From a bacterium (GTDB taxonomy: Bacteria; Vulcanimicrobiota; Xenobia; Xenobiales; JADMJV01): a stretch of 32,197 nt of DNA. How positions within the stretch are numbered: the stretch's first letter is position 1; every line of letters starts with the position of its first letter. The notes below the pieces were generated by a model, which saw only the letters and a list, made by a program, of their open reading frames with translations, was not told the DNA's origin and made no database searches. The position numbers were made by a program, and so were the translations under genes. Location: positions 1 to 32,197 of the forward strand of contig JASBRJ010000201.1 of NCBI GenBank assembly GCA_030149525.1, read 5' to 3'. Below, one piece after another: positions 2,941-27,680 of this stretch.

Positions 2941-4221
2941 ATGCTAGACGTCAAGGTACTTAGAGAACAACCGGATCATCTGAAAGACATGCTCAAAGCG
3001 CGCGGAAGCGACACCTCGGTGGTCGACGTCGCTATTGAAGCAGACGTAAAAAAACGAGAATGCATTGTTGAAGCCGACGCCAAGAAAGCAGAGCGCAACA
3101 AGGTCAGCAAGGAACTCGGGCTTAAGAAAAAGCAGGGCGAAGACATCAGCGGTGAAGCGGCTCGAATGAAAGACGTCTCGGCTGAAATCAAGTCTCTTGA
3201 TCAGGAGATTAACCAACTCGACGAAGCGCTGGTCTCAATCCTCGAACAGCTTCCCAATTTTCCTCACGAATCCGTTCCCGACGGACTCACCGACGAGGAT
3301 AACGTTGAAGTCGGCCGCTGGGGCGATATTCGTCCAGCGAAAGAGTGGGAGCAAGCCCATTGGGATATCGGCCCCAGACTGAACATCATGGACTTCGAAC
3401 GTTCGGCCAAGATATCGGGCTCAAGATTCTGGCTTCTTCGTGGCGCCGGAGCCCGTCTGGAACGAGCCCTCATCAACTTCATGTTGAATCTTCATACGAC
3501 CGAGCACGGATACGAGGAAATTTTGGCCCCCTCGCTAGTCCTCGCCGAGACCCTCTACGGAACGGGCCAGCTTCCCCGCTTCGCCGAGGACCTGTTTCGA
3601 TGTGAAGGGGAGGGGAGAGACCTCTATCTTATCCCCACATCCGAAGTGCCTCTCACCGGTATGCACGGAAACGAGATTCTCTCCGAGGACGAACTCAACA
3701 AACACTATGTAGGATTCAGCCCTTGTTATCGCTCGGAGGCCGGAGCAGCAGGCAAAGACACCAGGGGACTGATCCGGGTTCACCAGTTTCACAAAGTGGA
3801 ACTGGTGAAGTTTGCCAAGCCGGAAGACTCCTATCAGGAACTGGATCACATGGTTCGGCACGCCCAGCGAGTGCTGGAACTCCTGGAGATCCCGTATCGG
3901 ACCGTGAATATCTGCCTGGGAGACCTCGGCTTCACGGCCGCAAAGAAGTTTGATCTTGAGTTCTGGTCTCCGGTACAAGACCGATTTATCGAAATAAGCT
4001 CCTGTTCCAACTGCACCGACTTCCAGGCCCGTCGCGCCAACATTAAGTTCCGCCGAAAAGACGGCAGCAAAGAGTTTGTTCATACCCTGAACGGCTCCGG
4101 ACTGGCTGTTGGACGCACTCTGGTCGCCTTGCTGGAAACGCATCAGCAAGAAGATGGGTCCGTTCGAATCCCCGAGCCGCTCCAGCCCTACTTCGGCTCC
4201 GACAAAATCGAGCCCCGTTGA
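2941..4221 (+). CDS. serS: Seryl-tRNA synthetase
   Basis: This cytoplasmic class II synthetase charges tRNA-Ser. At 426 residues it has the usual length. The N-terminal tRNA-binding arm (about 30-105) is a Lys/Glu-rich coiled coil. The catalytic core shows TSEVPLT (233-239), motif 2 around SPCYRSEAGAAGKDTRGLIR (260-279) followed by VHQFHKVELV, the serine-site stretch EISSCSNCTDFQARR (351-365), and motif 3 GSGLAVGRTLVALLE (385-399). The ATG follows the previous gene by 51 bp, with GGAAA just upstream. Its stop codon overlaps the TTG start of the next gene. Confidence 0.98.
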   Translation: MLDVKVLREQPDHLKDMLKARGSDTSVVDVAIEADVKKRECIVEADAKKAERNKVSKELGLKKKQGEDISGEAARMKDVSAEIKSLDQEINQLDEALVSILEQLPNFPHESVPDGLTDEDNVEVGRWGDIRPAKEWEQAHWDIGPRLNIMDFERSAKISGSRFWLLRGAGARLERALINFMLNLHTTEHGYEEILAPSLVLAETLYGTGQLPRFAEDLFRCEGEGRDLYLIPTSEVPLTGMHGNEILSEDELNKHYVGFSPCYRSEAGAAGKDTRGLIRVHQFHKVELVKFAKPEDSYQELDHMVRHAQRVLELLEIPYRTVNICLGDLGFTAAKKFDLEFWSPVQDRFIEISSCSNCTDFQARRANIKFRRKDGSKEFVHTLNGSGLAVGRTLVALLETHQQEDGSVRIPEPLQPYFGSDKIEPR

Positions 4222-5456: not shown

Positions 5457-7069
5457 AAGAACTCTTCTTGAACGATAGACTCAAAAATGGGAAAGAGATC
5501 GGGATCGAAATGACCGTCGGCCATCTCTTGCATGATGGACAAAGCCTTTTCAGGGGTGAAGCGGCGTGCTTTTCCATCTTCTCCAAGGCGATAAACTCGA
5601 GGAGTGGTAAGGGCACTCCACACGTCGGCGAGTGTCATCACCCGAGCCAGAAAGGGAATATCTGTGCCGGAGAGCCCATCTGGGTAGCCCTGCCCGTTCC
5701 ACTTTTCGTGATGAGCCCTTACAATGGCGACCAGACTATCCATTCCCGGAACATTTCGGAACAGATCCGCCGACCGAGCGGCGTGAGTTTTCATAATGGA
5801 AAACTCTTCATCGGTGAGTTTTCGAGGAGCATTAAGAATCTCTTCATCGATGAAAATCTTACCAACATCATGAAGCTCGGCTGAGATGCGCATGTATTCT
5901 CGTTGTGCTCTATCCACGCCCAGCCGATCGACAATGCGAAGACTCATATCTCTGACATCCATGGAGTGGCGATAGGTGTAGTTATCCTTGATGTCGAGCG
6001 CCTTCACCATCATCCGCATGACGTTGAGTTGACTCTCTACCCGAACGTCTCGATACATGCGCACGTTCTTTTCAAGTGCCGCCACCACTCTTGGATTGTA
6101 GAGAGTGCCGGAGCCTTCTTTGATTTTTTCCAGAGATTCCTCTATGGTTTTGCGGCGGCAGTGGAAGGAGCTTAACTCCAGATAATCATCGGCGACCTTG
6201 AGAACCTGAGCCTCAAGCGGCATATCTTTATAGTTGTCTCGACCCATTGACCCGATAAAATAGAGGGCCTGGTGAAGATCTCTGTTCGGCTCAAGAATCT
6301 CAACGGCGTGTTGGAAGATTTTATCAAACTTGTCACGCTCTTCTTCCGAGAGTTCGCCCCCTTGTCGCTCGCGCACGATCAACTCTCGTGGCAGAGCCAC
6401 TTTACCGATCTCATGGAGGTAGCCGGCGAAAAGAATCTCTTCGCTGAGCATAGGACAGAGGATCCGACTCATCTCTCTTGCCAGTTGCCCCACTTCATAG
6501 CAGTGCTCCATCTGCTCGGTTCCGCCCGCAGCGACGTTGAGGTCCATGATCAAAGCGAGATCGGCATACTCTAGAGAGAAAGGGCGGTCGGCTCGAAATT
6601 TATGAATCGCTTCGGCGTCGGCGTCCAGGCTTTCCAGCAGGGACACTCGCTCGCCGGCCAGCATGTGCATTTTTGTGGCGAGGCTCGGCAGCGTTCGCAT
6701 GAGCCCTTGAAAATCGTCTTTGGTGAGCTTGAGTGCCGTGACACGCCCGATGGAACGAACCGTGGCCGAACGTGGCTGATCGATGATGAGAGACATCTCT
6801 CCGAAGCCTTCCGCCTGACCGAGTTCCGACAAGACAAGTTCGCTTGAGTCTTCATCGGTTCGCTTAAGAACACGGACTCGCCCCTCTTTAATGAGATAGA
6901 AGCTGTCCCCGATCTCACCCTCAATGACGATATTCTGGCCTGGCTCGAACTCCACCAACTGAACCTTTTCAGCGATAGAGGAGAGGACAGACTCACTCAA
7001 AGAGTAGAAAAGCGGATTAGCCGAAAGAAACGATTCAACAGTCGAACCAGCGTTTAGCGAACTTTCCAT
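5447..7069 (-). CDS. Cyclic-nucleotide-binding / HD-GYP phosphodiesterase-type protein
   Basis: This 540-residue cytoplasmic signalling protein has three parts. Residues 12-130 form a cNMP/CRP-type sensor with the phosphate-binding cassette pattern FGEMSL...PRSATV (89-104; Glu91, Arg100). Residues about 165-320 form an HD-like module reading HE (His219-Glu220, YLHEIGK), without a GYP signature, so probably degenerate. Residues about 355-530 form a canonical HD-GYP domain: His400-Asp401, His429, and HHEKWNGQGYP (453-463). HD-GYP domains hydrolyse c-di-GMP. The expected role is c-di-GMP turnover controlled by a cyclic nucleotide or other ligand. It is last in the minus-strand block, 57 bp after lexA. 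The pili and PilZ genes in the window are plausible downstream targets. Confidence 0.9.
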   Translation of the reverse strand: MESSLNAGSTVESFLSANPLFYSLSESVLSSIAEKVQLVEFEPGQNIVIEGEIGDSFYLIKEGRVRVLKRTDEDSSELVLSELGQAEGFGEMSLIIDQPRSATVRSIGRVTALKLTKDDFQGLMRTLPSLATKMHMLAGERVSLLESLDADAEAIHKFRADRPFSLEYADLALIMDLNVAAGGTEQMEHCYEVGQLAREMSRILCPMLSEEILFAGYLHEIGKVALPRELIVRERQGGELSEEERDKFDKIFQHAVEILEPNRDLHQALYFIGSMGRDNYKDMPLEAQVLKVADDYLELSSFHCRRKTIEESLEKIKEGSGTLYNPRVVAALEKNVRMYRDVRVESQLNVMRMMVKALDIKDNYTYRHSMDVRDMSLRIVDRLGVDRAQREYMRISAELHDVGKIFIDEEILNAPRKLTDEEFSIMKTHAARSADLFRNVPGMDSLVAIVRAHHEKWNGQGYPDGLSGTDIPFLARVMTLADVWSALTTPRVYRLGEDGKARRFTPEKALSIMQEMADGHFDPDLFPIFESIVQEEFLEA

Positions 7070-27243: not shown

Positions 27244-27272
27244 TTGACGTGCCGGATGCCTTCTTCTATAAT
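27244..27272 (+). promoter_or_regulatory. Sigma-70-type promoter of tRNA-Glu
   Basis: TTGACG (27244-27249) and TATAAT (27267-27272) are separated by 17 bp, with the mature tRNA starting 13 bp after the -10 box. It is the clearest housekeeping promoter in the window. Confidence 0.88.
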
Positions 27273-27285
27273 CGGTAGCGGTCGT

Positions 27286-27362
27286 GCCGCGTTGGTCTAG
27301 TGGCTTAGGACGCCGCCCTCTCACGGCGGAAATCATGGGTTCGAATCCCGTACGCGGTACCA
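27286..27362 (+). tRNA. tRNA-Glu (anticodon CTC)
   Basis: The sequence folds as a full cloverleaf. The acceptor GCCGCGT pairs with ACGCGGT (27352-27358) with a terminal G-U. The D arm has the GTCTAGTGGCTTAGGAC form typical of tRNA-Glu. The anticodon stem CCGCC/GGCGG closes the loop CTCTCAC, giving anticodon CTC, which reads GAG. The T loop is TTCGAAT. Discriminator A and CCA are encoded. Its 3' end from the T loop onward is repeated exactly 278 bp downstream. Confidence 0.96.
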
Positions 27363-27367
27363 AAATA
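27342..27367 (+). repeat. 26-bp direct repeat, copy 1 (3' end of tRNA-Glu; attL-like)
   Basis: This copy runs from the T loop through CCA and five bases beyond. It is identical to 27620-27645. Such tRNA 3'-end duplications are the classic mark of tyrosine-recombinase integration into a tRNA gene. Confidence 0.9.
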
Positions 27368-27389
27368 AACCTGCTGCACTGCGGGTTTT
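27368..27389 (+). terminator. Hairpin terminator directly after tRNA-Glu
   Basis: AACCTGC (27368-27374) pairs with GCGGGTT (27381-27387), including one G-U, around TGCACT. It ends in TTTT. It starts immediately after repeat copy 1. Confidence 0.7.
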
Positions 27390-27419
27390 CGCATAGCTAA
27401 GCGCCAGGGGCGGAAATCA

Positions 27420-27581
27420 GGGTCAAAGAGACTCGACTCGGACCGAGCCTGGCGCCGAGTGCCTTGACTCTAAGGCTTGTGGCAAAGTCCTACATATCGG
27501 GATATATTTAGGAACTTTGACGCGAGCCTTAGAGGCAAGGCATGCAAGCCAGGCGACGGGAGAGTCGGGTTTCTTTGGCCC
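27420..27581 (+). repeat. 162-nt near-continuous hairpin (structured RNA or miniature element)
   Basis: About 62 base pairs form one long stem. GGGTCAAAGAGACTCGACTC (27420-27439) pairs with 27562-27581 at all 20 positions, three as G-U. After a 7x7 internal loop, GCCTGGC (27447-27453) pairs with GCCAGGC (27548-27554). After a 6x5 loop, 27460-27477 pairs with 27525-27542 with one mismatch in 18. CAAAGTCCT (27483-27491) pairs with AGGAACTTTG (27510-27519) with one bulge. A short AT stem closes on CGGGAT. There is no coding potential. It is not a recognised 6S, SRP, RNase P or tmRNA sequence. It lies wholly between the two tRNA-end repeats. Confidence 0.85.
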
Positions 27582-27596
27582 CAAGTGTCCTCACTT

Positions 27597-27608
27597 CGTT
27601 CCGGAACG
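27597..27608. repeat. 12-bp perfect palindrome
   Basis: CGTTCC followed by GGAACG forms a perfect palindrome 11 bp before repeat copy 2. A small hairpin AAGTG-TCCT-CACTT (27583-27596) lies just before it. Both are inside the repeat-flanked island. Confidence 0.6.
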
Positions 27609-27619
27609 GCTGCGCCTTG

Positions 27620-27645
27620 CGAATCCCGTACGCGGTACCAAAATA
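27620..27645 (+). repeat. 26-bp direct repeat, copy 2 (attR-like remnant of tRNA-Glu 3' end)
   Basis: It is identical to 27342-27367, including the encoded CCA. No tRNA 5' half precedes it, so it is not a functional tRNA. Confidence 0.9.
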
Positions 27646-27647
27646 GA

Positions 27648-27680
27648 AAAAGCTCGTGGATGGCGAGCTTTTCTTATTTC
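27648..27680 (+). terminator. Hairpin terminator after repeat copy 2
   Basis: AAAAGCTCG (27648-27656) and CGAGCTTTT (27664-27672) pair perfectly around TGGATGG. A T-rich tail (CTTATTTC) follows. It lies 25 bp before the next start codon, so the downstream gene would need read-through or a promoter inside this region. Confidence 0.8.

Follow-up and report, generated by a model that had tools for sequence, protein, structure and literature searches.

The tRNA-Glu Locus

The window considered here is an entire 32,197-nucleotide stretch of DNA from a draft genome that is 97% complete and shows 4.5% contamination, and for which gene content raises a suspicion of Acidobacteriota. At 27286 to 27362 of its plus strand is a tRNA-Glu(CTC) gene, as called by ARAGORN and matched by Rfam RF00005 at 62.6 bits, with an orthologue that follows the same upstream gene in a sister genus. 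Preceding it, at 27244 to 27272 (+), is a sigma-70-like promoter, TTGACG-17-TATAAT, identified as a consensus match only (11 of 12 positions), which presumably serves also what lies beyond the tRNA.

The 3' end of this gene is found twice. That is, CGAATCCCGTACGCGGTACCAAAATA occurs as an exact direct repeat of 26 bp at 27342 to 27367 and again at 27620 to 27645, both on the plus strand and with a spacing of 278 bp, so that the repeat reported in the preliminary description, running from T loop to beyond CCA, was recovered at both of its positions. Each copy consists of 21 nt of tRNA, beginning at the T-loop C, plus 5 nt of trailer. As this is the sole direct repeat of at least 16 bp in the 32-kb window, the pair is not a matter of chance. 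A terminator had been described as following each copy, and this holds for the second one, with T2 at 27648 to 27672 (+) passing a terminator scan and occupying the position of the native terminator of empty sites (see below). What follows the first copy instead is a weak hairpin of 7 bp with four T (AACCTGC..GCGGGTTTT), which the scan did not report. This segment, 27368 to 27393 (+), may be a poor terminator or, alternatively, the left arm of a pairing with the second repeat copy, as duplex and fold calculations suggest.

Between the copies are 252 bp which indeed hold no gene, as originally stated. What can be distinguished there, all read on the plus strand, are, first, GGCGGAAATCAGGG at 27409 to 27422, a degenerate remnant of a tRNA anticodon arm and variable region that agrees at 13 of 14 positions with 27325 to 27338; second, a long imperfect hairpin, 27420 to 27581; and, third, a short G+C-rich element, 27588 to 27619, that is directly 5' of the second copy. 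The latter was recognized as a match to a profile which includes its own sequence and, among the inserts compared, it resembles elements occupying the same place behind Thr, Ala, and Arg tRNA genes as well as elements found in arrays of small-RNA-like units.

A direct repeat that starts in the T loop and runs past CCA is what a tyrosine recombinase acting at that loop would leave behind, and the locus accordingly had been viewed as a place where a miniature integrative element had inserted into the tRNA gene, or as the scar of a deleted island. The T loop is reportedly one of the sublocations used by integrative elements at tRNA genes (Williams, 2002), and in common with such elements there is here a restored tRNA 3' end along with a direct repeat. 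Different from them, however, are the lack of a recombinase, a length of only 278 bp, and, as considered next, a like use of 5S rRNA. Overall, this origin is very improbable.

Recurrence Within the Genome

The tRNA-Glu arrangement can be described as an RNA gene followed by a hairpin or terminator, a structured insert, the RNA's 3' end copied exactly, and then a terminator. In a screen of the 42 distinct tRNA genes found in this genome, the same layout recurs behind Ala-TGC, Phe-GAA, and Thr-TGT, the last with two units in tandem. Reading of the Pro-TGG flank brought out an Arg remnant on the opposite strand, and of the two 5S genes one likewise displays a copy of its RNA's tail. At the tRNA units it is the 3' end (6 to 21 nt) plus trailer that recurs, 90 to 280 bp downstream, with Arg copying the whole terminator, and a short, G+C-rich hairpin sequence is located directly 5' of each copied tRNA tail.

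This recurrence at five other RNA genes, 5S included and with differing inserts, speaks against an attachment site. The starts of the repeats vary by locus, at Arg reaching only 6 nt into the acceptor, and the inserts possess neither common end sequences nor copies elsewhere. A search for the same payload behind additional tRNA genes had been proposed, and no copies are present in this genome or in 58 relatives. In a whole-genome search the inserts gave no match away from such sites except within arrays of RNA plus terminator on two contigs. The repeat furthermore has no counterpart in IMG/VR, and phage and plasmid records contain nothing that matches the payload. A tyrosine recombinase, a search for which had been suggested, does exist elsewhere in the genome and adjoins the Arg locus (PF00589, E 1e-23), but it has its own, longer attachment repeat. 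At that place (locus L193 on contig C182, 6308 to 6997 and about 6080 to 6300) the recombinase gene is beside a roughly 44-bp 3'-terminal tRNA-Arg(ACG) fragment, and the two probably represent one end of a truly integrated element. Behind this fragment in turn comes a TLR-like unit (for TLRs, see below) that is convergent with tRNA-Pro(TGG).

From a different perspective, these structures might be viewed as neutral by-products. Where RNA genes are rich in hairpins and strongly transcribed, repeated slippage or template switching would give rise to partial tandem copies with palindromic fill-in, which would have no function and would persist for a time since a second terminator is harmless. This is the main live rival to the interpretation preferred here, even if it is judged unlikely. 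It would account for inserts that differ among the RNA genes of this genome and indeed across lineages, for the tandem reiteration seen in the Thr and Ala units, for degenerate tRNA remnants inside second copies, and for inverted T-arm pieces, which are found in the Phe unit here and also in E. coli lysV and in units of a rumen bacterium.

The possibility of a dispersed palindromic repeat family (REP/BIME-like) was also considered, and was rejected, as profile matches in 726 kb, a sample biased to tRNA contigs, occur only at the units and in the small-RNA-like arrays.

Empty Sites

Four sister-genus genomes (loci L007 to L010) have an orthologous 122-aa upstream gene, 43 to 47% identical between the genera, with tRNA-Glu behind it and the terminator directly after that. 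As tRNA and terminator abut there, the 278 bp sit exactly between the tRNA and its native terminator. The empty counterpart that the preliminary description had called for consequently exists, with the 278 bp being a lineage-specific difference, present in one lineage only relative to the four sister-genus genomes. Empty sites alone fit both a gain here and a loss in the sister genus. As for function, conservation would be the main sign of it, and none of the close relatives carries the Glu unit.

A second pair is found within the genome itself, where two 5S rRNA genes (L328 and L329, on contigs C250 and C286) have identical sequences and identical T2 flanks and differ by exactly 142 bp, one of them being filled by an insert with a 27-bp repeat, ACACTGCCAGGTTTTTATTCAAAGCCC, and the other being empty. 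Such exact filled and empty pairs are consistent with an integrative element, though an empty site in relatives is equally expected given a TLR.

Folding of the Insert

The 252 bp fold strongly, with z of -8.9 as DNA and of -10.4 as RNA. The core of this fold is an imperfect inverted repeat of roughly 160 nt, at about 27420 to 27581, and its arms, read as plus strand, combine 55 Watson-Crick pairs with 5 G-U, 5 A-G, 0 A-C, and 0 C-U. These one-sided mismatches, 10 to 0, fit an RNA that is read in the tRNA sense. The asymmetry could also stem, however, from transcription-linked, strand-biased mutation. So stable a fold, with mismatches of one kind, nonetheless counts against a purely neutral by-product.

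The left arm, 27368 to 27393, can form a duplex of -34.8 kcal/mol with 27608 to 27641, equalled in 2 of 1000 shuffles, and the same pairs between left arm and second copy appear also in computed folds of the Glu unit. Rfam, at gathering as well as at permissive thresholds, returned only the tRNA and meaningless eukaryotic miRNA look-alikes, with no match to RtT.

Likeness to E. coli tRNA-Linked Repeats

The tRNA-linked repeats (TLRs) of E. coli are said to have been found in 1978, with Egan and Landy reportedly describing 178-bp repeats at tyrT (rtT), and were treated further, it is said, by Rudd in 1999, and then by Stenum et al. in 2021 (PMC8144298). In MG1655 the tail-copy layout was re-derived at tyrT/tyrV, argQ/Z/V, lysV, rrfB, and rrfF. 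There are 22 such repeats in ten loci, each terminating in 18 to 19 bp that match the 3' end of the preceding RNA exactly, a copied tail which has been proposed to be a processing signal (PMC8144298). Three of them, RrA, RrB, and RrF, are located downstream of 5S genes, flanked by T1 and T2, and are known as read-through transcripts which are processed and which bind Hfq and CsrA (PMC8144298). A role as stable decoy or small RNA has been proposed for RrB. Apart from these three rRNA-linked ones TLRs were without known function as of 2021 (PMC8144298). Conservation of the units at rrn operons extends over 31 species and is reported only from within Enterobacterales (PMC8144298).

The units described here share with E. 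coli TLRs a position directly 3' of a tRNA or 5S gene and in the same direction, a terminal segment in which that RNA's 3' end is copied exactly (about 18 nt there versus, at Glu, 21 nt of tRNA and 5 nt of trailer), a non-coding nature with G+C-rich hairpins ahead of the copy, a presence at several loci in each genome, at tRNA and 5S genes alike and only at some rrn operons, and, at the 5S and lysV units, two terminators. The 5S unit here indeed reproduces the RrA/RrB/RrF design element for element. The differences are a host from outside Enterobacterales, where TLRs were described, a longer repeat (26 bp), and, at the Glu unit, a hairpin of about 160 nt.

Reciprocal profile searches between these inserts and those of E. 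coli TLRs gave no match at units in either direction. The term 'TLR-type' is used here because the stated hallmarks are present while a sequence relation to the E. coli inserts is absent, such a relation being outside of the stated definition of a TLR. The units are accordingly regarded as a variant from outside Enterobacterales, which may descend from the same ancestor as the E. coli TLRs or may have arisen independently. A 15-mer, CGAGCGAAGCGAGTC, does occur directly before the tail copy both in E. coli lysV (at about 3529 to 3701 of that locus, L292) and in the Ala unit (L026). It is not counted as homology as such mini-hairpins can converge, and the inserts otherwise are unrelated.

This likeness is relevant to both alternatives. 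E. coli TLRs are not known as attachment sites, so that the layout matches something other than an integrative element, and the conservation in 31 species and processing of the rrn-linked units (PMC8144298) are not what would be expected of functionless by-products. The preliminary description had itself allowed that the second repeat might be part of a functional RNA rather than a duplicated attachment site, and in architecture this is largely what is seen, with a function for the RNA being no more than suggested by it. A more distant comparison is with 3'ETS-leuZ, an sRNA that is cut from a tRNA trailer (PMC8144298) and which therefore is likewise a non-coding RNA from sequence behind a tRNA, but it is without a repeated tRNA 3' end and its layout is another one.

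Units in Other Genomes

Exact matching across 104 tRNA genes of the sister genus gave no partial copies with this layout, and allowing mismatches revealed one weak partial copy. Among 58 tRNA genes from four other genomes of the phylum there was one simple tandem copy. In one genome (G026) tRNA-Phe has been partially duplicated in simple tandem fashion, which shows that events of the sort postulated for a neutral by-product do happen. No copies were associated with any of 29 5S loci sampled in further genomes of the phylum, nor were such units found in samples from Neobacillus and Granulicella. The tRNA samples from other genomes are partial.

The richest TLR-type case seen is a rumen proteobacterium MAG (the genome of CADBEI010000018.1), with TLR-type units at 8 of the 31 tRNA genes tested (L274, L382, L391 to L393, L395, L396, and L402), in most of which the tRNA tail is repeated in inverted form behind T1. 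If its class falls near Enterobacterales, then this MAG is weaker evidence of a wide spread.

Over 15 units from three lineages the copied tRNA piece is 14 to 21 nt long (mean 18.7, sd 1.8), as compiled by hand and leaving out the Arg remnant (6 nt) along with the 5S units. A segment so nearly constant in length and in start across three lineages argues against pure accident, without proving function. The left part of a unit also pairs better with its own RNA's tail than with the tails of others, i.e., a result reached in 4 of 20000 permutations over 20 units from three lineages. By set, the signal comes mainly from the rumen genome (p 0.0004). E. coli gives a suggestive value (0.07), and there is no signal in this genome (0.87), where pairing between left arm and 3' end is significant for Glu alone, in a dedicated test.

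Proposed Nature of the Unit

The segment from 27363 to 27645 is probably a TLR-type unit, one which is likely transcribed past a weak hairpin and into an RNA with a tRNA-like 3' end. I infer transcription, processing, and function of the Glu unit from layout and fold together with the E. coli precedent. RNA polymerase would start at the tRNA promoter, TTGACG-17-TATAAT, continue past the weak first hairpin so as to transcribe the unit, and stop at T2. The tail copy, which ends in CCA and would be paired with the left arm, would then be cut by the nucleases that mature tRNA and 5S 3' ends, thereby freeing a structured RNA of about 280 nt, the amount of which should track tRNA-Glu transcription. 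By analogy with what has been proposed for RrB, the most likely role of this putative RNA is as a stable decoy or small RNA. As to origin, local duplication or template switching at an RNA gene may be suggested rather than an integrase, because the inserts vary by site, 5S genes are used, and some units contain inverted copies of tRNA arms.

Previously TLRs have been known from E. coli and close relatives, and their layout is now seen at several RNA genes in a bacterium unrelated to these. It is conceivable, if somewhat doubtful, that TLRs are a widespread class linked to stable RNAs, arising recurrently behind tRNA and 5S genes and supplying unrelated bacteria with growth-rate-coupled small RNAs which bear a 3'-tail processing tag. 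Should that be the case, then the tail copy, often paired with an inverted copy, would be a tRNA-like minihelix ending in CCA. A filled and an empty 5S gene within one genome, plus a rumen MAG with units at about one quarter of the tRNA genes tested, make possible comparative tests of constraint, i.e., on the 3'-tail copy, on its pairing partner, and on the two terminators, which Enterobacterales alone do not allow. There is also a warning here, that a duplicated tRNA 3' end without an integrase does not by itself equate with an attachment-site scar.

Additional Observations

The small-RNA-like arrays are tandem ones, located at 2242 to 2889 of locus L188 (contig C306) and at 3187 to 3788 of locus L187 (contig C268), each consisting of an RNA-like segment (..GAGCATAG/TGGACCGCC) plus terminator in units of 129 to 421 bp. 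The RNA-like segment has no Rfam match. Some copies are broken by a 33-nt element, GACTCCGCTTCGCTTCGTAACGCCTTCGGCTTG, that is related to the G+C-rich elements, and one array reaches the contig end. Within the window itself, positions 547 to 2889 appear, judging from translations, to hold two tandem genes for PilT/PilU-like ATPases.
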